Assembly (NCBI GenBank): GCA_003164035.1
Contig: PLRS01000092.1
Coordinates: forward strand, 124,001-188,000
Origin: Bryobacterales bacterium
GTDB taxonomy: Bacteria; Acidobacteriota; Terriglobia; Bryobacterales; Bryobacteraceae
DNA length: 64,000 nucleotides
Direction: 5' to 3'
The notes beneath the pieces were generated by a model, which saw nothing but the letters and a program-made list of their open reading frames with translations, searched no databases and was not told where the DNA came from. Within the stretch, counting starts at the first letter, position 1. Each line of letters starts with the position of its first letter. The translations under genes were made by a program, and so were the position numbers. Below are positions 27,771 through 49,752 of the stretch, piece after piece.

Positions 27771-29072
27771 ATGGAACTTCAATCCGATAACAAAACCGGC
27801 GGCGGCCACGCCGCCTTTCGCGTGGATGTTCAGTTGCACCAGTTGCTTGTCGATAAAGACGCCAAGAACGGCAGCCGGCCGAAGAGCCTGGTACCGTCTC
27901 CGAGCGACCCGTTGACACTCCCGGAACCCGTCTATCCGCATCGTCCGGAGCTCCAAAGCATTCCGGACCCCGAAGTCTTTCCCGATAAACGTTCGTGGGG
28001 CGCGCCCTACGTCTACCGCGCCGTGCGCGGCTGGATGTTCCCATATCTTCGTTCGCGCTTTTATACAGGCAATTTTCATCCCATCATCGCTTACCTGTTT
28101 ACCGAGTGGAAGTGTAATCTGGACTGTCATTACTGTTGGGCGTTCGACAACAGCGTCAAGGGCATGACGGAAGACGTGGCGCGGCGCTCCATCGACTGGC
28201 TTCACGACAATGGCTGCCGTGTGCTGGCCCTGATGGGCGGCGAGCCGCTGCTGCGCCCGCAGTTCGTCCATAAGGTGGTTTACTACGCCGCCAAGAAGGG
28301 CTTTTGGATCTACGTGCCCACCAATGGGCGGCTCTTGCGGCCCGACGTGATCGACCGGCTGGGAGACTCCGGCGTCGCTACCTTCAACCTGGCCGTCGAC
28401 GCGGTGGACGAAAAGCCGGGCCTGCCCAAGGCGCTCACTCCCATCCGTAAGTACTTCGATCACCTGGTGAGGCGCCAGTACCGCTACGGTTACACCGTGT
28501 TCTTCAACATGAATATCTGCCGCAATAACATGGACGATATCCGCCAGTTGACCGAAATCGCCCGCGAGCATCGCATCGCCACCGATTATCACATCAATGA
28601 AACACCGATGATCGAGCCCGATAACTTCGCGCACCTGGAGAACAATGTCACTTACATCCGGCAGGAAGATTGGCCGCGGGTGGACGAGTTAGTGGATTGG
28701 CTGATCGAAAAGAACAAATCCGGTTACAAGATGGTGAACTCGGTGCAGCGGCTGGACGAAATGCGCCAGTTCATGCGCGGCAAGCTGCAGGAGTGGAGCT
28801 GCCGGGCGGGCCACAACAACGTGATCGTCCGCGTGGATGGCACGCTGGCCCCTTGCTTCCCGATGTACTCGGCCACTTACGATTGGGGCACGGTGGGAGA
28901 GCACAAATTCGAGACGAAGCAGCTCAATGAGATGAAGAAGGGCTGCCAGCCGCATTGCTTCTCCACTCTGAACCACAACCTGGCGTATTGCTACGATGCC
29001 ACGCGCGTGATTAAGTGGATGGGCAAGCAGGCTGTCCGCGGGTTTCAGGGCGCAACCGGGAGCTTTTCGTAA
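27771..29072 (+). CDS. Radical SAM protein with SPASM-like C-terminal cysteines
   Basis: 433 residues. The SAM-cluster motif CNLDCHYC (C115, C119, C122) sits after an unusual 110-residue N-terminal extension rich in prolines. MGGEPLLRP is the GGE motif. The C-terminal part has further cysteines (WSCRAG about 345, APCFP about 363, KGCQPHC about 391-395, AYCYD about 407) that could hold an auxiliary cluster, as in SPASM enzymes that modify peptides or sugars. GAGAGGA precedes the ATG. A methyltransferase gene follows 87 nt later. No precursor peptide gene is visible beside it; function unknown. Confidence 0.88.
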   Translation: MELQSDNKTGGGHAAFRVDVQLHQLLVDKDAKNGSRPKSLVPSPSDPLTLPEPVYPHRPELQSIPDPEVFPDKRSWGAPYVYRAVRGWMFPYLRSRFYTGNFHPIIAYLFTEWKCNLDCHYCWAFDNSVKGMTEDVARRSIDWLHDNGCRVLALMGGEPLLRPQFVHKVVYYAAKKGFWIYVPTNGRLLRPDVIDRLGDSGVATFNLAVDAVDEKPGLPKALTPIRKYFDHLVRRQYRYGYTVFFNMNICRNNMDDIRQLTEIAREHRIATDYHINETPMIEPDNFAHLENNVTYIRQEDWPRVDELVDWLIEKNKSGYKMVNSVQRLDEMRQFMRGKLQEWSCRAGHNNVIVRVDGTLAPCFPMYSATYDWGTVGEHKFETKQLNEMKKGCQPHCFSTLNHNLAYCYDATRVIKWMGKQAVRGFQGATGSFS

Positions 29073-29078
29073 AGGAGC

Positions 29079-29147
29079 GGGAGTCGGAAGACAGAAGTGA
29101 GAAGACGGAAGTTTGCGCTTCCGGCTTCTTGACTTCTGGCTTCCGCC
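29079..29147. repeat. GGAAG-rich hairpin between radical SAM and methyltransferase genes
   Basis: Left arm GTCGGAAGACAGAAGTGAG..GACGGAAG and right arm CTTCCGGCTTCTTGACTTCT..GGCTTCCG pair over about 30 bases around a TTTGCG loop. Each arm is a run of short GAAG units. It may be structural or slow the transcript between the two genes. Confidence 0.75.
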
Positions 29148-29159
29148 TTCTTCAAGAAC

Positions 29160-29879
29160 ATGGAACGTGCCGATAAAGTTTGGCAGAACTCCGCCCTGGT
29201 GGCCACCTACCTGGAAGGAGTGCGCGGCGGGATCCCTCTGGCCCAGGAACAGATCGACGTGATGCTGCGGCTGATTGCGGCCGCAGGCGGGGAGCGAGCT
29301 CTCTCGTTTCTCGACCTGGGTTGCGGCGACGGCGTGCTGGGCAACGCGGTGCTCGACCGCTTCCCTTCCGCGCATGGCGTGCTGGCGGATTTCTCCGAGC
29401 CGATGCTCGAAGCCGCGCGCCAGCGCATGGCGCAGCATACCGGCCGCGCTCAATATGTCCACGCCGATTACGGCTTGCCGGACTGGGTCGATGCCGTCCG
29501 GCCCTTTGCGCCTTTCGATGCGGTGGTGTCCGGCTATTCCATCCACCATCAACCGGACCAACGCAAGCGTGAGGTCTACGGCGAAATCTACGGCCTGTTG
29601 GCCAGCGGCGGCATATTCGTCAACGTGGAACACGTGTCGTCGCCCACCGATTGGCTGGGCGCGATGCAAGACGAACTGTTCGTCGACAACCTCCACGCCA
29701 TCCACCCCGGCCAAACCCGCGCCGAAGTGGCGTCCGTCTATTACAACCGCTCCGATAAGGCCGCCAACATTCTGGCGCCGGTCGAGCTGCAGTGCCAGTG
29801 GCTGCGCGAAATCGGATTTACCGACGTGGATTGCTATCTGAAAATCTTCGAGGAGGCCGTGTTCGGCGGGCGGAAGTAG
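29160..29879 (+). CDS. SAM-dependent methyltransferase (class I)
   Basis: 239 residues. Motif I is FLDLGCGDGVLGNAVLD, followed by GVLADFSEPMLEAARQRM, FDAVVSGYSIHHQPD and GGIFVNVEHVSSPTD, typical of small-molecule C/N/O-methyltransferases of the UbiE/tRNA-like superfamily. Probably works with the radical SAM enzyme encoded just before it. Substrate unknown. Confidence 0.88.
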   Translation: MERADKVWQNSALVATYLEGVRGGIPLAQEQIDVMLRLIAAAGGERALSFLDLGCGDGVLGNAVLDRFPSAHGVLADFSEPMLEAARQRMAQHTGRAQYVHADYGLPDWVDAVRPFAPFDAVVSGYSIHHQPDQRKREVYGEIYGLLASGGIFVNVEHVSSPTDWLGAMQDELFVDNLHAIHPGQTRAEVASVYYNRSDKAANILAPVELQCQWLREIGFTDVDCYLKIFEEAVFGGRK

Positions 29880-32103: not shown

Positions 32104-33258
32104 TCAGTCCAGGCTCTTATGGAACCTCACCGTGCTCAGCCCCAGCACAGTCACTCCGTACACTGCCAGCGCCACCATTTGCGGCCATAGCGTGGCCGCG
32201 CCCGTGCCTTTCAGAAAAATGCCGCGCAGGATTTCGATGAAGTAGCGCAGCGGATTCAGATAGGTCAGCCACTGCACCACCACCGGCATATTGCGGATGG
32301 GGAACGCAAACCCGCTCAGCATGAAGGCCGGCGTGGTGAAGAAAAAATTGCCCATCATGGCCTGCTGCTGGGTGTTGGATACGGTGGATAGGAACAAGCC
32401 CGCGCCCAGGCTCGTCATCAGAAACAGCGACGCGCAACAGAACAGCAGCGGCACGCTGCCCCGCAGCGGGATATGGAAAATCACCAGCGCCGCGGTGGTG
32501 ACCAGCGCCACCTGGACCAGGCCGACCAGGGCGAACGGCAGCGTCTTGCCCAGCATCAGCTCCAGCGGCTTCACCGGCGTCACCATCAATTGTTCCAGCG
32601 TGCCGATTTCCTTTTCGCGCACGATGGCCATGGCCGTAAGCATGATCGTGACAATCATGATGATGTTGGCGATTACGCCGGGGACGAAGTAATTGCGGCT
32701 GTACAAATCCGGGTTGAACCACACCCGGGTTTGCGCCGTAACGGTGGGCAATCCCGGATTCGCCGGCGCCGCCGCGCCGCGCATCAGCAGGCGGGTATTC
32801 TGCTGCTGGGCCGACATCGAATTGCCGAACTCCGCCACCACGCTGGCCGCGTAGCTCGAAACCAGCGATGCCGTGTTGGAGTTGGTGCCGTCGATCAGCA
32901 CCTGCACTTGCGCATCGCCGCCGCGGCGCAGGTTGCGCTCGAATTCCGGCAGGATGCGCACCACCGCCTGCGCCTGGCCGCGGTCCAGCACGTTCTGCAC
33001 GTCCTGCTCGTTGCGCGCCAGCGCCACCACGTCGAAGCGGCCGGAGCCTTCGAAGCGCTCGCGCAGTTCGCGGCTGGCCGGCGTGCGGTCCAGGTCCATC
33101 CAGGCGATGCGCGCGTGGTCCACGTCCAGGTTCACGGCGAAGCCGAACACGACAAGCTGAATCATGGGCGGCAGGAACAGCAGAAACCGCATGCGCGGGT
33201 CGCGCAAGGCCTGGATCAGCTCCTTGCGCAAAATGATGACGATCCGTTCCCAACTCAT
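32104..33258 (-). CDS. ABC-2 type permease (YbhR-like)
   Basis: 384 residues: first helix in FLLFLPPMIQLVVFGFAV, a large extracytoplasmic domain (about 45-175, with DGTNSNTASLVSSYAASVV), then five helices; IVREKEIGTLEQLMVTPVKP is the ABC-2 signature loop. Follows its partner permease without a spacer, so the two probably form a heterodimer in an HlyD/TolC-linked exporter. Confidence 0.92.
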   Translation of the reverse strand: MSWERIVIILRKELIQALRDPRMRFLLFLPPMIQLVVFGFAVNLDVDHARIAWMDLDRTPASRELRERFEGSGRFDVVALARNEQDVQNVLDRGQAQAVVRILPEFERNLRRGGDAQVQVLIDGTNSNTASLVSSYAASVVAEFGNSMSAQQQNTRLLMRGAAAPANPGLPTVTAQTRVWFNPDLYSRNYFVPGVIANIIMIVTIMLTAMAIVREKEIGTLEQLMVTPVKPLELMLGKTLPFALVGLVQVALVTTAALVIFHIPLRGSVPLLFCCASLFLMTSLGAGLFLSTVSNTQQQAMMGNFFFTTPAFMLSGFAFPIRNMPVVVQWLTYLNPLRYFIEILRGIFLKGTGAATLWPQMVALAVYGVTVLGLSTVRFHKSLD

Positions 33259-34398
33259 TTATGCCACCTTCTGGTTCAGCTTGCGTGTGGCCGCCCAGGC
33301 GATCAGGACCGCAAATGCGGCCAGAAAAACATATTCCTTCCACAAAATGGACAATCCCACCCCCTTCAGAAACACGCCTTTCATGATTGTCACCACGTAG
33401 CGCGCGGGGACGACGATGGTCACCGCCTGAATCACTTTGGGCATGGTGTCGATCGAATAGACGAACCCGGAGAGCAGGAACGCCGGCAGAAACGAGCTGA
33501 GCACGCCCATCTGGTAGGCCTGCAACTGGGTCTTCGAAACCGCCGAAATAAAGATGCCCCAGAACAGCACGCCAAACAGGAACAGCCCGGTGCCCGCCGC
33601 CACCAGCAGCAGGCTGCCGCGCAATGGCACGGTGAACACAAACAGGCCCACCAGCAGCGCCACCACCGAATCCACCGCGCCCACCACCGAGTACGCCAGC
33701 ATTTTGCCCAGCACGATTTCCACCGGCCGCAGCGGCGTGGAAAGCAATTGCTCCAGCGTTCCCATCTCCAGTTCCCGCGCGATGGTCAGCGAGGTTAGCA
33801 GCGCGGAGATAATTTGCAGAATCACCGCGATCAGTCCCGGCACCACGTAGTTCTTCGATTCCAGCGAGCTGTTGTACCACACCCGCAGGCGCAGGTCGAT
33901 GGGCGTGCCGCCGCGCTGTCCGGCCCGGCGATTCTGGGCGTCCGCGCGCAGCGTGAGCGAATAATTGTTGACCACGCTTTCGGCGTAGCCCAGCGCGATG
34001 GAAGCCGTGTTGGAGTCGCTGCCGTCCAGCAGAAGCTGCACCGGCGCCACCCGCCCGGAGCCCTCCTGCTTGCCGTAGTCGCGCGGAATCACCACCCCCA
34101 GCAGGACGCTGCCGCGGTCGATGGCGCGCTCGATGGGCGCATATGCCCGCACATAGCCCAGCACGTCGAAGTACCGCGAAGCCTGGAATTGTTTCACCAG
34201 GTCGCGGCTGGCCTCGGTATCGGACTGATCGTAAACCAAAGTGGGAATATGATCCACGTCCAGGCTCAAGGCGTAGCCGTAGAGCAGCAGCATCATCACC
34301 GGCAGAAACAGCGCCAGCGAAAGGCTGCGCTTGTCGCGCACGATGTGGCGCAGCTCTTTGATCCAGATGGCCCGCAGGCGCCGCAGGCTAGTCCGCAT
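33259..34398 (-). CDS. ABC-2 type permease (YbhS-like)
   Basis: 379 residues from ATG 34398. Same layout as its neighbour: N-terminal helix (LALFLPVMMLLLYGYAL), extracytoplasmic domain with DGSDSNTASIALGYAES, five C-terminal helices and IARELEMGTLEQLLSTPLRP. The frame stays open further upstream only through repeat sequence. Ends directly at the start of the next permease gene. Confidence 0.92.
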   Translation of the reverse strand: MRTSLRRLRAIWIKELRHIVRDKRSLSLALFLPVMMLLLYGYALSLDVDHIPTLVYDQSDTEASRDLVKQFQASRYFDVLGYVRAYAPIERAIDRGSVLLGVVIPRDYGKQEGSGRVAPVQLLLDGSDSNTASIALGYAESVVNNYSLTLRADAQNRRAGQRGGTPIDLRLRVWYNSSLESKNYVVPGLIAVILQIISALLTSLTIARELEMGTLEQLLSTPLRPVEIVLGKMLAYSVVGAVDSVVALLVGLFVFTVPLRGSLLLVAAGTGLFLFGVLFWGIFISAVSKTQLQAYQMGVLSSFLPAFLLSGFVYSIDTMPKVIQAVTIVVPARYVVTIMKGVFLKGVGLSILWKEYVFLAAFAVLIAWAATRKLNQKVA

Positions 34399-34686
34399 GG
34401 GAACCACACCTGCCTTTACCGTGGCGCAGGCTGTCAAGCCTGCTGAGCCGAGATTCGTCTCGGCTTTTCTTCTCCTGCACTTGCCACGAAATAACCGTTC
34501 CAAATCTTGGAGGCCGACGTGGCGCACGCACTCGTGCGTGCCGCGTCGAGACTCTTCTCGACGCCCGCTCGCGCATGGTAGACGAGGCGTCGTGCTTGGC
34601 CGCACTAATCTCTTGACGGGCCCCAACTGACCAGCCTCGCGGCCAGGATTGCTCCCTGACGGTCGCGGCTCGGTTACGCGCGTCCC
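34399..34686. repeat. Repeat cluster inside the exporter operon
   Basis: Three elements in 288 nt: GTGGCGCAGGCTGTCAAGCC plus GCCGAG/CTCGGC (34421-34468); GTGGCGCACGCACTCGTGCG plus GTCGAGACTCTTCTCGAC (34519-34566); and a half copy of the CCGCTCCCT palindrome (34646-34674, GCTCCCTGACGGTCGCGG). They separate the ATPase genes from the permease genes. Confidence 0.8.
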
Positions 34687-35621
<935 letters not shown>

Positions 35622-35625
<4 letters not shown>

Positions 35626-36371
35626 GTTCTGGCCGCCTCCAACTCGCGAATGGTGCTGATAAACGCGCCTTCCAGGTTCACCGCGCCCGCCTCCCGGCGC
35701 AGTTCCTCCGGCGGCGCGCAGCGCACCAGCCGGCCGCGGTACATCAGGCCCACCCGGTTCATCCGCTCGGCTTCGTCCAGGTACGCCGTGGTGATGAAGA
35801 TGGTGGTGCCGTCTTTCAACAGTTGATACAGAATCGCCCAGAAATCGCGCCGCGATACCGGGTCCACGCCGTTGGTCGGCTCGTCCAGAAACAGAATGCG
35901 CGGCTTGTGCAGCAGGGTACACATCAGCGCCAGCTTCTGTTTCATGCCGCCCGACAAGCGCCCCGCCTGCCGCCCGCGAAACTCCTCCATGCGGGTCATG
36001 CGCAGCAGCTCCACCGTCAGCCGGTCGCGCTCGGCGCCGGTGATGTCGAACAGGTCGGCGTAGAACTCCATGTTTTCCTGCACGGTCAAATCCACGTACA
36101 GGCCGAAACGCTGCGCCATGTAACCGATCTGGTCTTTCACCTTCTGCGATTCCGTCACCACGTCGCAGCCGGCCACGCGCGCCGAGCCCTCGGTCGGGTT
36201 CATCAGCCCGCACAGCAGGCGCAGCGTAGTGGTCTTTCCCGCCCCGTCCGGCCCCACCAGCCCGAAAATCTCTCCCGGCGCCACGGTCAGGTTCAGATGG
36301 TCCACCGCCGTGAGCTGCCCGAAACGGCGGGTCAGATCGTGAGTCTCGATAATCGGTTCGGCGCCGTTCAC
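35622..36371 (-). CDS. ABC transporter ATP-binding protein (first ATPase of exporter)
   Basis: 249 residues from GTG 36371, overlapping the HlyD stop (GTGA). Walker A GPDGAGKTT, signature RLSGGMKQKLAL, Walker B ILFLDEPTNGVDP. In E. coli YbhF the two ATPase halves are fused; here they are two coupled genes. Confidence 0.93.
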
Positions 36372-37540
36372 TGCAACACGATCTCCGCGTCGGCCGGCAT
36401 ATTGCTCTTCAGCTCGTGCGCCGGATTGTCCGCTTCGATCTTGATGCGGTAGACCAGCTTCACCCGCTCCTGCTCGGTCTGAATCTGTTTGGGAGTGAAT
36501 TCGGCCTCCGACGCAATGAACGTCACCCTCCCCCAGTACACTTTTCCCGGATACGAATCCGTGGTGACGCGCGCCTTCGATCCCAGTTTGACTTTGCCCA
36601 GATCGCTTTCGTTGATATAGCCGCGCAGCCACGGATGGTCGATGTCGCCCACCGTCACCACGCTGGTTCCCGGCGCCAGGATTTCGCCCACGTCCGCCGA
36701 TTTCACCAGCACCACCCCATCCACCGGCGAAACCTCGATGGTGTCGGAAAGCTGCGAATCGATCAGCGCCAGGTTGGCCCGGGCGCGCTCGATCTCGGCC
36801 CGCCGGGTGCCCATGTCCTGCTCCCGCCGCCGCGTTTCCAGATGATTGGCCTCGGCCACTTTCAGCGCCGCCCGCGCGCTTTCCACCTGGCCCTGCTGGG
36901 CGCGAATCACCTCCGCGCGCTGCCCCTCCAGCGTCAGCGACTGCCGCTCTTTGGCCGATTTCAAAGCCGCCACGGCGTTCTCCCACCGGTTGCGGTATTG
37001 ATCGAATTGTTGGGTCGAAATATCGTCGTCCTTGAACAGCACCTGGGCGCGGTCCCAATCGCGCTTGGAGCGTTCCACCTCCGATTGCGACGAATCCACC
37101 GCCGCCTGCGCGTCCAGCTTTTCCTGCGGCCGCGCTCCGTTGTGCAGCTCCGCCAGGCGCGCCTCCATCGATTCCAGATTGGCGCGCCGCTCGTCGATAT
37201 CGGCCGCCACCGTCTGCTTCTCGTATTCGTGCGAAGTGATCGCCTGGGCCAGTTGCGTCTCGGCCGACGTCAGCGCCGCCGCTTGCGCTTCCCGCTGCGC
37301 CACCAGTTGATCGCGATCCAGACGCGCCAGCACTTCGCCTTTCTTCACCGTGTCGCCTTCGTCCACGTCACGCTCGATCAGCCGTCCGGCGGTCTTGAAT
37401 GCGATATTCACTTCGGTCAGTTCGATGTTGCCCGAGACCACGATGCGGTTGTCCGGCCGCCGGGTCATGCCGCGGTAAGCGTACACCGCCGCTCCCGCCG
37501 CCAGTAAAATAATCGCGATTACCAGAATTCGTTTTTTCAT
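36368..37540 (-). CDS. HlyD-family periplasmic adaptor (YbhG-like)
   Basis: 390 residues: N-terminal membrane anchor (LVIAIILLAAGAAVYAY), barrel-sandwich start (GRLIERDVDEGDTVKKGEVLARLD), long alpha-helical hairpin (about 75-240) and closing lipoyl half (SPVDGVVLVKSADVGEIL), then a beta-barrel. Links the inner-membrane ABC pump to TolC. Confidence 0.93.
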   Translation of the reverse strand: MKKRILVIAIILLAAGAAVYAYRGMTRRPDNRIVVSGNIELTEVNIAFKTAGRLIERDVDEGDTVKKGEVLARLDRDQLVAQREAQAAALTSAETQLAQAITSHEYEKQTVAADIDERRANLESMEARLAELHNGARPQEKLDAQAAVDSSQSEVERSKRDWDRAQVLFKDDDISTQQFDQYRNRWENAVAALKSAKERQSLTLEGQRAEVIRAQQGQVESARAALKVAEANHLETRRREQDMGTRRAEIERARANLALIDSQLSDTIEVSPVDGVVLVKSADVGEILAPGTSVVTVGDIDHPWLRGYINESDLGKVKLGSKARVTTDSYPGKVYWGRVTFIASEAEFTPKQIQTEQERVKLVYRIKIEADNPAHELKSNMPADAEIVLQ

Positions 37541-37986
37541 GCTTTAAGCTCTTTTTGGCTGGTAGAACAACCCGTCAGATCCTCTTGCCGCCTCGTGGCG
37601 CGGGCCTCCGGCCTGCAGCGTCGGCTTTCGAGCCGACGTGGTTTCTTTGTCGCCGGTGGGCTCTTTTCTGTGGGGCAGACCATCGTTTTTTGTGGTCTGC
37701 CACCTCGGGGCCTTCGGCCCTCGCAAGCTCATGAAAACCGTGGAGCGGACTCTCAGTCTGCCACGCCGGGACTCGTCCCGGCGCGTTTTTCGACCCTGCC
37801 ACCTGTGCGCTTTCTCGCGGCCGAAAAACAAGAATGAGTGGACAAGACGGAGTGCCGGGTGCAGGGCAGACCACGAAAAACGATGGTCTGCCCCACAAGC
37901 GCCCCAGCACACGTAATTGCACTTCGGATGTCATGCGCTCAGGCCAGACCCCTTGTTGGAATTCCATACGTTGTCATACGCAGCCC
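37541..37986. repeat. Large compound repeat array between exporter genes
   Basis: No gene seen. Contains GTGGCGCGGGCCTCCGGCC plus GTCGGCTTTCGAGCCGAC (37595-37638); an inverted pair of GTGGGGCAGACCA hairpins bounding 37670-37895; and, inside that pair, GTGGAGCGGACTCTCAGTC plus GCCGGGACTCGTCCCGGC (37740-37784). The pair is the same family as 16016-16160 but with a longer, different interior. Confidence 0.8.
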
Positions 37987-38229
37987 CTATCCATTCACGT
38001 CGGCGACAAGCCGGTTGGTGATTTCCTCGAGCGTGAAACTTCGTACGTCGCTAGGCGGCCCGAACGTCTGCGCCTCGATATGGCCATCCTCAAAGAACTC
38101 GACCTCGTAGCATTTGCTCGGTGTCGGCACGACCACCATGATGGCGTCACGCACGCATTGCAGGTTGAAGGAAATCTTCTCTTCCTGTAGCCCAAGAATA
38201 AATTCCAGTAGCTGCCCTAGACTATTCAC
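37987..38229 (-). CDS. Small hypothetical protein
   Basis: 80 residues, unrecognised. Sequence looks protein-like and alternates beta-type stretches (AIMVVVPTPSKCYEVEFFED) with a C-terminal helix (TLEEITNRLVADV). Lies 40 nt after tolC on the same strand inside the exporter cluster. It resembles small immunity-type proteins in size only. Confidence 0.6.
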   Translation of the reverse strand: MNSLGQLLEFILGLQEEKISFNLQCVRDAIMVVVPTPSKCYEVEFFEDGHIEAQTFGPPSDVRSFTLEEITNRLVADVNG

Positions 38230-38269
38230 GGTGCGCCCTGTATGCTCTGCTTCAGGCCTATTGCCCCCC

Positions 38270-39685
38270 TCACTGCACCAGACTCCGCACGCGACCCATG
38301 GATTGCGCCAGATCGATGCGCGCCAGGTTGTAGTTATAGAGCGCGGCCGTCTGGTTGTCCCGCGCCCTCTCCAGCCGCGTCTGCGCGTCGGTCACTTCAA
38401 TGCTATTGGTGACCCCCGCCGCATAGCGGCGCCGCGCCTGTGCCAGCTCGCTTGCGGAAAGGTCCAGACCCTCGCGGGCGACTTTCACTTCGTCGTCGGC
38501 CGAACCTAGTTCATCCAGCGCCAGCCGCACATCCAGCTCGATCTGCTCTTTCAGATCGTTGCTGCGCGCCTGTTCGGCGCGAAGCTGCGACGCCGATTCG
38601 GCCCGCCGCGCGTCCCGCCGCCCACCATCGAAAATCGGCACCCGCACCGAAATCCCCACCGTGCGGGTGGGCAATGAGTTGTCGAAGCCCGTGCCGCTGG
38701 TGCCGTAATCGCCGAAACCTGAAACCGACGGCAGCCGCTCCATCCTGGTGGCGCTGGCCGAAAGCCGCGCGTTGGCTTCCCGCTGGCGCTGCGCCTCGTA
38801 ATCCGGCCGCTGCTTCAGCGCCGCCGCGCGCGCCTGCTCCAGCGTGACCGTGTCCACCGGAAGATACTGCAGTTTGTCGGTCAGTTGAACCGCCGCGTCC
38901 AGCCGCACGTTCATGGCGCGCAGCAGCCGCAAGTAGGCCGCCCGCCGCGCGTTGCGCGCTTCCAGCAGCCGCTGCCGGTCGTTGGCAAGCTGCACCCGCG
39001 CGCGCGTGATTTCGATCCCCGTCCCGGTTCCCGCTGTCTTCTCGTTGCCGGCCTGCGTCAGCAGCGCCTCGGAAAGCGCCACGTTGGCTTCCGCCGATTC
39101 CAGGTCGGCGTCGGCCTTGACGCCCGCCACATAACCCTTGGCCACTTGCGCCGCCACCTGCTCGCCGGTGCTCGCCAGGTCCGACCGCGCCGCTTCCGTC
39201 GTTCGCTTGGAAGCCTGAAAGCGCCGAATCGAGCTGAAGTCGAACACGCTTTGGGTGGCGCTCACCCGCGCATCCATGGTGGTGAACGGGCCCACGAAAG
39301 CCGGAAACGCGAAGCCGGCGATCGGGATGGAGGCGAAGAGCCTGGAGGAGAGTCCCTGGGCCGCCAGATCTTCCGTCCGGCTCTCGGTCGAGTACGCCCC
39401 TTCCACGTCGGGCAGCAGCGCCGCCCGCGCTTCGTCGGCGCGGTCGCGTGCCTGCGCCAGCGATTCGCCCGCCAGTTCGATGGCCGTGTTCCCTTGCGGC
39501 GACAACGCGATATCCACGGCCCGCTTCAGGCTCAGCGGCAGCGGTCCCTGATTGCCAGCCGTCGGGCCGGCCTCGAGCTGCGGCGGCCGCGGCTCGGCGG
39601 CGGGAACGCTCGCGCCGGTGATCGCCTGTTGACCAGCCGCCGTCGCCACTGCCACCGCCGCCGGCCAGATCCATCGCATCTTCAT
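38270..39685 (-). CDS. TolC-family outer membrane efflux protein
   Basis: 471 residues from ATG 39685 overlapping the TetR stop (ATGA). Signal peptide (WIWPAAVAVATAAG), then two OEP repeats with long helices: LSLKRAVDIALSPQGNTAIE and later GISVRVPIFDGGRRDARRAE and YAAGVTNSIEVTDAQTRL, all typical of TolC proteins. Outer-membrane exit duct for the exporter. Confidence 0.93.
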   Translation of the reverse strand: MKMRWIWPAAVAVATAAGQQAITGASVPAAEPRPPQLEAGPTAGNQGPLPLSLKRAVDIALSPQGNTAIELAGESLAQARDRADEARAALLPDVEGAYSTESRTEDLAAQGLSSRLFASIPIAGFAFPAFVGPFTTMDARVSATQSVFDFSSIRRFQASKRTTEAARSDLASTGEQVAAQVAKGYVAGVKADADLESAEANVALSEALLTQAGNEKTAGTGTGIEITRARVQLANDRQRLLEARNARRAAYLRLLRAMNVRLDAAVQLTDKLQYLPVDTVTLEQARAAALKQRPDYEAQRQREANARLSASATRMERLPSVSGFGDYGTSGTGFDNSLPTRTVGISVRVPIFDGGRRDARRAESASQLRAEQARSNDLKEQIELDVRLALDELGSADDEVKVAREGLDLSASELAQARRRYAAGVTNSIEVTDAQTRLERARDNQTAALYNYNLARIDLAQSMGRVRSLVQ

Positions 39686-40338
39686 ATCTGTTCTCCCCGC
39701 TGGCCGCTTGCCGCGCTCGTCGCCCTGGCTGACAGCGCCGATGGCGCCCGAAAACCGGCCGTCAAAAACGTCACCAACTCCTTCACCATGTGCGCCGGAT
39801 CGAGCGTCGCATCGAGCGGCACCTGCCACTCCAACGGTCCGCGGCACAAACAGTGCGCCATGGCGCCGATCAGGAAGTTCAGTCTCCAAGCCAGTTCCGA
39901 TTCCGTAAGGTCCGGCAGCGCCCGCCTCAACGCCCCCCAGAAACGCCGCCCCACTTCGGCAAAGTGCCTGCTCGCCAGATCCGGCATCAGCCCTTCGCCG
40001 ATTAACCGGCCCATCATGCGGGGAAACTCGGGGTTCTGCTTCACCACCACCATCGTTGGCGCCAGAAACGCCTCCAGAATCTCATCCACCGCCACCGGCT
40101 TCCCTACGGCCCGTTCTTCCAGCCGCGTCAGCCGATCCAGGCGCTCGGCGTTTACCGGTTCTATATTTCGCGCGATTGCCGCGTCCAGCAGTTCCTCTTT
40201 AGACCCGAAATGGTAATGGATGGCCGCCAGGTTGACCTGTGCTTCGGCAATGATGTGACGCAGCGACGTGCCGCCATAACCTTGTTCGGCAAATACCCGT
40301 ACCGCGGTATCCATGATTTTCTGTTTCGTGTCAATCAC
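39682..40338 (-). CDS. TetR-family repressor (CecR/YbiH-like)
   Basis: 218 residues. HTH at residues about 8-50 (KIMDTAVRVFAEQGYGGTSL, NLAAIHYHFGSKEEL) and a CecR-like C-terminal domain. In E. coli CecR controls the homologous ybhGFSR pump genes; the same gene set follows here. A palindrome lies 4 nt upstream of the start, so it probably represses itself and the exporter. Confidence 0.93.
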   Translation of the reverse strand: MIDTKQKIMDTAVRVFAEQGYGGTSLRHIIAEAQVNLAAIHYHFGSKEELLDAAIARNIEPVNAERLDRLTRLEERAVGKPVAVDEILEAFLAPTMVVVKQNPEFPRMMGRLIGEGLMPDLASRHFAEVGRRFWGALRRALPDLTESELAWRLNFLIGAMAHCLCRGPLEWQVPLDATLDPAHMVKELVTFLTAGFRAPSALSARATSAASGQRGEQI

Positions 40339-49027: not shown

Positions 49028-49465
49028 TCAGCCACGCTGCCCGCCACTCTCAGCGTCCTTCAGGATCTCGATCATCGCGGCGGGAGTAATAATCCGGGTG
49101 GCTTTGTGCCGTTTCAGGGAGAGGAGCTGCTTGTCGCCGGTCACAAGGAACTCGGCCTGGCTAGCTTCCGCCAGCGCGAGCAGGTAGCTGTCCTTGGGGT
49201 CCGGAGCGATCGGGCCGGAGGGCAGGCGCCGGCAGAAAAAGGAGAAGTCACGAAGGCCGGCGGCGAGCAGTTCGGCCGCGCTGGCGCGAAGTCTCGCACG
49301 GAAGAAGGGCCGGCCGGCGACGTCGCGGAGTTCCGCAATGAGCGCGTCACAGGCGACCAGCGTGAACGTCTTGCGCTCCCAGGCGTCGAGAAGTTGTGCC
49401 GGCGCGCCCAAAGGCGAGAGCAGGGAGGAGAGCAGGATGTTGGTATCGAGGACGACGCGCATCAA
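49028..49465 (-). CDS. PIN-domain toxin (VapC-like, COG1569 type)
   Basis: 145 residues. PIN acidic residues are visible: VVLDTNILLSSLLSP (first Asp), ACDALIAELRDV (Glu), DPKDSYLLALAEA (Asp) and LVTGDKQLLSLKRH (Asp). Expected Mg-dependent RNase. Its start overlaps the antitoxin stop (ATGA). Intact, unlike the PIN gene at 63788. Confidence 0.9.
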   Translation of the reverse strand: MMRVVLDTNILLSSLLSPLGAPAQLLDAWERKTFTLVACDALIAELRDVAGRPFFRARLRASAAELLAAGLRDFSFFCRRLPSGPIAPDPKDSYLLALAEASQAEFLVTGDKQLLSLKRHKATRIITPAAMIEILKDAESGGQRG

Positions 49466-49752
49466 GCTCGTTTGGCGCGCTCGCGATACTGTTTCGCGCG
49501 GGCATCTTCGACGGCGTCGTCAATCCTCTTCTGGAGTTCATCCGGGGAAACGTCGGCGAAGGCTTCGCGGGCGTCGCTGACAGTCTGATGAAAGATGCGC
49601 CAGCGAACCGCCTCTTCGATGAATTTCGAGAGATCGCCCTTTTTCATGCCCTGGGCGCCCAGGAAAGTTCGCAAGGCATAGTCGGCTTGCTTGGACCAGG
49701 TAATCGTCAGACGGGTAGTTTCCTGGGGCTCGGACATAGCATTTTTCGTCAT
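49462..49752 (-). CDS. Ribbon-helix-helix antitoxin of the PIN module
   Basis: 96 residues. RLTITWSKQADYALRTFLGA with GMKKGDLSKFIEEAVRWRIF is an RHH DNA-binding unit; the acidic C-terminal helix (ELQKRIDDAVEDARAKQY) would bind the toxin. Start at ATG 49752 or at ATG 49739 (MSEPQ). The upstream region has direct repeats suited to autoregulation. Confidence 0.8.
   Translation of the reverse strand: MTKNAMSEPQETTRLTITWSKQADYALRTFLGAQGMKKGDLSKFIEEAVRWRIFHQTVSDAREAFADVSPDELQKRIDDAVEDARAKQYRERAKRA

Follow-up and report, generated by a model that had tools for sequence, protein, structure and literature searches.

The window analyzed here, a stretch of 64,000 nucleotides from a Bryobacterales bacterium (contig PLRS01000092.1), carries on its forward strand a gene for a predicted radical SAM protein followed by a methyltransferase gene, with a hairpin between them. 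The features of this locus, in window coordinates, are as follows.

27771 to 29072, forward strand: predicted radical SAM protein of 433 amino acids, with PF04055 and a SPASM/Twitch-like tail (structure model available)
27816 to 27848, forward strand: motif FRVDVQLHQLL, residues 16–26, predicted with low confidence as a short helix
27918 to 27947, forward strand: conserved segment LPEPVYPHRP, residues 50–59
28113 to 28136, forward strand: CxxxCxxC (C115, C119, C122), putative site of the SAM-binding [4Fe-4S] cluster, Cys in 52 of 52 relatives
28800 to 28958, forward strand: putative auxiliary-cluster cysteines C344, C362, C392, and C396 (CX12GX4C ... CX3C), in 52 of 52 relatives
29082 to 29148, no strand assigned: GAAG-rich inverted repeat that can form a hairpin in the intergenic stretch; as far as tested, it does not belong to the system
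29160 to 29879, forward strand: class I methyltransferase of 239 amino acids, a neighbor only, with linkage that is not conserved

Elsewhere in the window, inspection by eye identified an efflux array on the reverse strand (32104–40338) with two ABC-2-type permeases, two ATPases, and HlyD-like, outer membrane factor-like, and TetR-like regulator genes, as well as a gene resembling a PIN-domain toxin, preceded upstream by a small partner gene (49028–49752, reverse strand).

The radical SAM gene and its methyltransferase neighbor

The CxxxCxxC motif and a PF04055 match of 68.7 bits (Pfam cut-off 29.5) place the product of the first gene, as judged from its sequence, in the radical SAM superfamily; PF04055 was also detected (E ≤ 0.01) in each of the 52 relatives. 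Seven cysteines are invariant across the 52 aligned proteins: C115, C119, and C122 of the CxxxCxxC motif, and C344, C362, C392, and C396, four residues that could hold an auxiliary cluster. Twitch and SPASM domains are defined by a CX9-15GX4C motif, and the full SPASM set reads CX2CX5CX3C-gap-C. The protein has C344-x12-G357-x4-C362, with all three residues invariant; from the full SPASM set only C392-x3-C396 is invariant, C407 being a cysteine in 43 of the 52 aligned relatives. Because the full set is incomplete, we consider the tail to be Twitch-like rather than full SPASM. The Pfam SPASM family (PF13186) is found in 23 of 52 relatives and is absent from the window protein. A first-pass annotation of this DNA had proposed a radical SAM reading frame with auxiliary cysteines and a SPASM-like tail, and these assignments hold in the comparison with relatives. 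Selenocysteine was considered and rejected: an in-frame TGA was flagged in six genomes of family f28, the aligned part of the protein (query residues up to 424) is stop-free, and the TGA was taken as an ordinary stop because it lies outside the conserved region.

The same annotation had noted a long N-terminal extension, which is borne out by the structure model, in which the first core strand begins at residue 106, and by conserved motifs at residues 16–26 and 50–59; the presence of these motifs also supports the start codon. The first motif typically reads [FY]R[LVI]DVx[LV]H[DE]LL; a strict pattern for it matched 56 of 88 loci, and a relaxed pattern matched 64 of 86 called proteins. In the second (LPEPVFPxxP), P51, P53, and P56 are invariant in all 10 rows of alignment A1, and the segment is predicted with high confidence (block 51–60, mean pLDDT 93). 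The extension could be a substrate-recognition part, as had been suggested, but nine relatives (L158–L166) lack approximately its first 70 residues, which argues that these residues are dispensable for the core; of the 100 loci scored below, nine lack most of the extension. In our view, a tethered docking tag is the better description of the N-terminal motif.

The second gene starts 87 bases after the radical SAM reading frame on the same strand, and its 239-residue product matches Methyltransf_25 at 58.9 bits (Pfam cut-off 27), in agreement with its annotation as an adjacent class I methyltransferase. It also matches the PADLOC model mad2 (E 3.8e-16) over part of that longer model, which we took as generic. 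The GAAG-type hairpin reported between the genes is present as well (−43.4 kcal/mol, z −4.1); the rest of the genome contains a single further copy, a partial one (79% over 62 bases), and a match of 23 bases.

On the basis of the SPASM-like tail and their adjacency, the two genes had been read as a pair that carries out a two-step modification, a view that the shared strand and the 87-base spacing would favor, with the absence of conserved linkage named in advance as the result that would count against it. That result is what the co-occurrence analysis gave. Methyltransferase orthologs at ≥60% identity were found in 2 of 60 related genomes; in one (G036) the ortholog is on contig C10 and the radical SAM gene on C93, and in the other (G044) the radical SAM ortholog is absent. 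When matches at E ≤ 1e-10 were counted, 22 of 61 genomes had one, again on other contigs in G033 and G035, and none of the 61 genomes except the window's own had such a match on the contig of its radical SAM ortholog. In the loci read, the methyltransferase clustered with no called neighbor gene, and no ortholog of it lies beside the nearest relatives of the radical SAM gene (L031 and L032). A different methyltransferase-like gene (assigned by eye) does lie upstream of the family gene in L164–L166, on the opposite strand, and would favor a methyltransferase partner. In the window, the stable hairpin that separates the two genes counts against the pair. We therefore consider a two-step pathway with this methyltransferase very unlikely. 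As far as tested, the methyltransferase is a chance neighbor.

Class and spread of the radical SAM family

Confirmed loci in the genome collection number 209; among the best 80 of these, all those named to a taxon belong to Acidobacteriota, and three are titled only "bacterium." Orthologs at 58–86% identity are present in 8 of the 60 other related genomes searched, 8 of the 37 genomes that represent its own family carry the gene, and a phylum-wide sample of 297 genomes contains it in 22 at E ≤ 1e-60, own genome counted. No match was found in plasmid records at E ≤ 1e-30. One genome (G027) carries three diverged copies (L033, L035, and L038), none of which was seen beside the C1 or C2 genes described below.

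Comparison with NCBIfam returned 62 models at E ≤ 0.01, the best 25 of which all scored far below their cut-offs. The highest score was for PapB (63.3 bits, cut-off 340), and viperin reached 45.9 bits (cut-off 180); among these best 25 of the 62, none of the radical SAM equivalogs (PapB, PqqE, MoaA, NirJ, HpnH, viperin, and others) reached its cut-off. The earlier remark that the enzyme matches no nameable pathway is consistent with this finding, as no radical SAM family of known function fits among these best 25 of 62 matches in the libraries searched. Judged by these comparisons, the window protein belongs to a conserved, uncharacterized family. A prokaryotic viperin (pVip) was rejected as an identity since the PADLOC pVip match (E 4.4e-15) covers residues 111–215 only and is not full-length; for the Tes/Mss lipid synthase, viperin, and NifB identities alike, the match is limited to the shared core.

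The structure model of the radical SAM protein (mean pLDDT 79.4) has as its nearest folds in VIA-align BlsE, SkfB, 5wgg/5why, SuiB, and anSME, with BlsE at the top (Z 21.9, rmsd 3.3, 290 residues). These neighbors fix the class of the protein, not its function.

Several of the nearest folds and best library matches (SkfB, 5wgg/5why, SuiB, and PapB) are consistent with a peptide (RiPP) maturase whose precursor is unlinked or undetected. However, the search for conserved small open reading frames beside the gene, which had been recommended as a check, yielded no convincing one when the 700 bases around the gene were compared across 100 distinct loci, as judged from the ten widest clusters: nine of these look like off-frame C1 or C2 sequence, and the remaining one, which comes from five near relatives of f28, lies on either strand. 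In addition, the top fold match, BlsE, acts on a small molecule. Based on these results, we regard a role in peptide maturation as unlikely.

A membrane-spanning lipid synthase of the Tes or Mss kind was also considered. GDGT-MAS appears among both the sequence matches (7tol, E 7.1e-5) and the fold matches (7tom, Z 15.9; 7tol, Z 15.6), these synthases are the subject of PMC8941075 and PMC13274423, and the former reports Tes homologs in Acidobacteria. The published criterion for identifying Tes is E < 1e-50 with a length over 400 amino acids (PMC8941075), and the 7tol match, which is limited to residues 105–226, is far from it. Many other folds, BlsE and SkfB among them, score higher than GDGT-MAS, and the gene occurs in just those 8 of the 37 genomes of its own family, so we consider this identity extremely unlikely.

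Linkage to C1 and C2

In neighborhoods of the family radical SAM gene (hereafter R), two other genes recur, C1 (∼600 amino acids) and C2 (∼1,200 amino acids), and the three form an operon-like array. By tblastn, C1 and/or C2 lie on the same strand and within 6 kb of R (measured between midpoints) in 32 of 100 distinct loci, a count that is rough because 11 of 111 loci were dropped (same translated match, or a match shorter than 300 residues), because the sample leans to near relatives (80 of the 111 were best hits to the alignment led by the window protein), and because contig ends hide some neighbors. The gene orders among the 32 linked loci are R-C1-C2 (9 loci), C1-R-C2 (9), C1-C2-R (8), R-C1 (5), and C2-R (1). 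Parsimony on the family tree, a quick tree with 36 of 97 inner branches starred, requires at least 7 changes between the linked and unlinked state and at least 5 changes of gene order, which suggests either that R, C1, and C2 came together repeatedly or that they were retained with reshuffling. In a table of neighboring gene clusters, C1 accounts for 30 loci and C2 for 25. They are followed by c3, with 8 loci (in the same operons), and by c4, c5, and c6, with 6 each, some of these loci being duplicated. From these results, we conclude that the R family is repeatedly linked to C1/C2 and not to the methyltransferase. This linkage was not found described in the titles and abstracts of the open-access literature searched.

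The window's own clade has no linked locus among its 10 rows, and the window's genome has its C1-C2 pair on a different contig (G000:C71:93070-98245). Of 17 stretches read around C1, 13 show C1 and C2 as direct neighbors but lack a family R next to them; three of the other four have no gene calls and one has C1 alone. The R-C1-C2 arrangement is carried by Granulicella sp. dw_53, a cultivable soil member of the Acidobacteria (L117).

Other genes were observed at some of these loci. A conserved small protein (c3, ∼94 amino acids) follows C2 or precedes C1 in L074, L075, L077, L081, L084, L086, L090, and L093, and c3 of L077 has no Pfam or NCBIfam match. A gene that by eye is UbiD-like (c7) lies divergently upstream of C1 in L074, L075, L077, L081, and L084. 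A second, different radical SAM gene (c5, ∼250–330 amino acids, CPLxCPGCYA) lies near R in L038, L040, L082, L088, L092, and L111 (L038 and L111 represent a single place). In one of the C1 stretches (L157), a distantly related radical SAM gene (26%) lies close by.

C2 contains PF01869 (BadF/BcrA-type ATPase) in two stretches (225.8 bits) plus PF09989 (DUF2229). When C2 is aligned with the activator HgdC (1hux), C487 and C526 fall on two of its cysteines, those that hold the bridging cluster in HgdC, and the first ATPase domain of C2 has the pair C145 and C184, both domains' pairs being spaced 39. With an ATPase domain and two putative cluster cysteines, C2 has the sequence characteristics of an acyl-CoA dehydratase activase of the HgdC type. 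C1 has no Pfam family and no PDB sequence match at E ≤ 0.001, and its profile gives only an unrelated match at E 0.34; the possibility that C1 and C2 are homologs of each other was rejected, as no profile match was found between them.

The structure model of C1 has a mean pLDDT of 81.3. In Foldseek, chains of benzoyl-CoA reductase, double-cubane protein, or hydroxyisocaproyl-CoA dehydratase fill the first 16 rows, with E no better than 0.003 (0.003–0.15) and TM-scores of 0.23–0.32 on the model. Its first nine VIA-align rows belong to the same reductase/dehydratase family (Z 8.1–11.1, 271–290 residues), the weakest of them tied with an unrelated response regulator (Z 8.1, 99 residues). With regard to the [8Fe-9S] cluster of double-cubane proteins and its ligands, the C1 cysteines C102, C144, and C467 are present in 23 of 23 proteins, and C141 and C456 in 22 of 23. 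The predicted fold of C1 appears to resemble the subunits of 2-hydroxyacyl-CoA dehydratases, double-cubane proteins, and benzoyl-CoA reductases, and together C1 and C2 look like an ATP-driven low-potential reductase. Double-cubane assembly is addressed in PMC12491067. For large activase-like proteins with DUF2229 (the C2 type), and for this radical SAM family, no function was found in the libraries and open-access literature searched.

As a separate measure of association, the presence of R and C1 in whole genomes was compared. A strong C1 match (E no higher than 1.5e-79, including a single partial match; weak matches in G017, G019, and G025 not counted) is present in 8 of 9 genomes with R and in 18 of 61 overall (Fisher p 1.1e-4, with relatedness ignored). 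Across the 297 phylum genomes, R is present in 22, C1 in 25, and both in 10 (p 9e-7, relatedness again ignored), and in family f8 exactly the same six genomes carry R and C1. Nevertheless, 12 of the 22 R genomes have neither C1 (E ≤ 1e-60) nor C2 (E ≤ 1e-80), and 15 of the 25 C1 genomes have no R. By these counts, co-occurrence of R and C1 exceeds chance but is far from strict; a common anaerobic lifestyle could raise it.

Two further observations concern these distributions. Two f8 genomes (G199 and G296) have C2-like matches with neither C1 nor R, the G199 match being in two pieces. Members of the R family that lack most of the N-terminal extension (L158–L163, ∼45–49% identical) come from six genomes of one genus, in which no C1 or C2 gene was found at the cut-offs used.

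The N-terminal motif of R has look-alikes in its neighbors. In 7 of the 9 C1-R-C2 loci (L074, L077, L081, L084, L086, L090, and L093) C2 has such a look-alike near its N terminus, and some C1 proteins have a weaker one. By shuffling, 6 of 18 R/C2 pairs gave p ≤ 0.02 with windows on the motif (L074, L077, L081, L084, L086, and L093), and a further pair (L112) gave p 0.03 with a window unrelated to it; no R/C1 pair was significant (best p 0.062, L086), and one C1/C2 pair was (L086, p 0.012). With a motif profile, 7 of 38 C2 and 5 of 44 C1 proteins scored in the top 2% when set against 932 other called proteins, whereas the other 31 C2 and 39 C1 proteins, including those of the window's genome (L141), did not. 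Since the positive loci are related, we treat a shared tag as a lead only. A three-protein system in which C1/C2 feeds electrons to the radical SAM enzyme or shares its substrate, within a complex formed via short N-terminal tags, is a reading that we consider doubtful. If true, it would be a new way to power radical SAM chemistry in soil bacteria.

Proposed role and comparison with known systems

Based on the linkage, the predicted folds, and the co-occurrence data, the window protein is probably a Twitch/SPASM-like enzyme of an uncharacterized family that has a C1/C2 ATP-driven reductase as its partner, either in the same pathway or as an electron supply. The enzyme would cleave SAM to a 5′-deoxyadenosyl radical, which would take hydrogen from a substrate, either a small molecule or a peptide, and the auxiliary cluster may serve electron exit or substrate binding. 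C1/C2 would supply a neighboring reductive step, or electrons, to the radical SAM enzyme. Because each also occurs without the other, neither R nor C1/C2 is obligatory to its partner. The likeliest relation is that R and C1/C2 carry out two steps of one pathway, or that C1/C2 supplies electrons.

The existence of each partner alone fits poorly with an obligatory donor and equally with an obligatory maturase. In the latter case the radical SAM protein would modify C1/C2 or build a large Fe-S cluster for it, as NifB does for nitrogenase. The repeated linkage to a protein predicted to be double-cubane- or benzoyl-CoA-reductase-like is in keeping with such a role, as is the appearance of NifB among the weak sequence matches (E 0.004) and the fold matches (Z 13.3). 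However, many radical SAM enzymes with the same core score higher than NifB, and the 15 C1 genomes with no enzyme and 12 enzyme genomes with no C1 count against maturation. We consider this role distinctly unlikely and favor a shared pathway or electron supply.

The repeated linkage joins two unknowns, the R family and the C2-type proteins, both of which are testable in cultivable soil Acidobacteria, and C1/C2 offers a concrete route to the role of the radical SAM family. If C1/C2 serves the radical SAM enzyme, radical chemistry would have an ATP-driven source of electrons akin to that of nitrogenase.

The radical SAM protein is like BlsE (7vob), SkfB (6efn), the sactipeptide maturase of 5wgg/5why (which we take to be CteB), SuiB (5v1s), and anSME (4k36) in having a radical SAM core followed by an auxiliary-cluster tail, with VIA-align Z of 18.9–21.9 over 263–290 residues at 13–18% identity. 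Unlike these enzymes, the window family has its own conserved N-terminal extension, a CX12GX4C...CX3C arrangement in place of the full set of SPASM cysteines, and linkage to C1/C2 in a third of the loci read, where the search for a peptide precursor found none. A likeness to NifB and nitrogenase exists in the broadest sense, in that an ATP-driven Fe-S reductase would operate alongside a radical SAM protein; unlike NifB, the window protein shares only the core (Z 13.3 at best) and gives no evidence of cluster building. C2 is like the activators of 2-hydroxyacyl-CoA dehydratases in its BadF/BcrA ATPase domains and activator cysteine pair, and C1, by its predicted fold, may be like the subunits of 2-hydroxyacyl-CoA dehydratases, class I benzoyl-CoA reductases (BzdNO and MbdONPQ), and double-cubane proteins (DCCP/DCCP-R). 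In contrast to those families, C1 has no sequence match in the PDB, C2 combines two ATPase domains and DUF2229 in a single chain, and a radical SAM gene is often attached.
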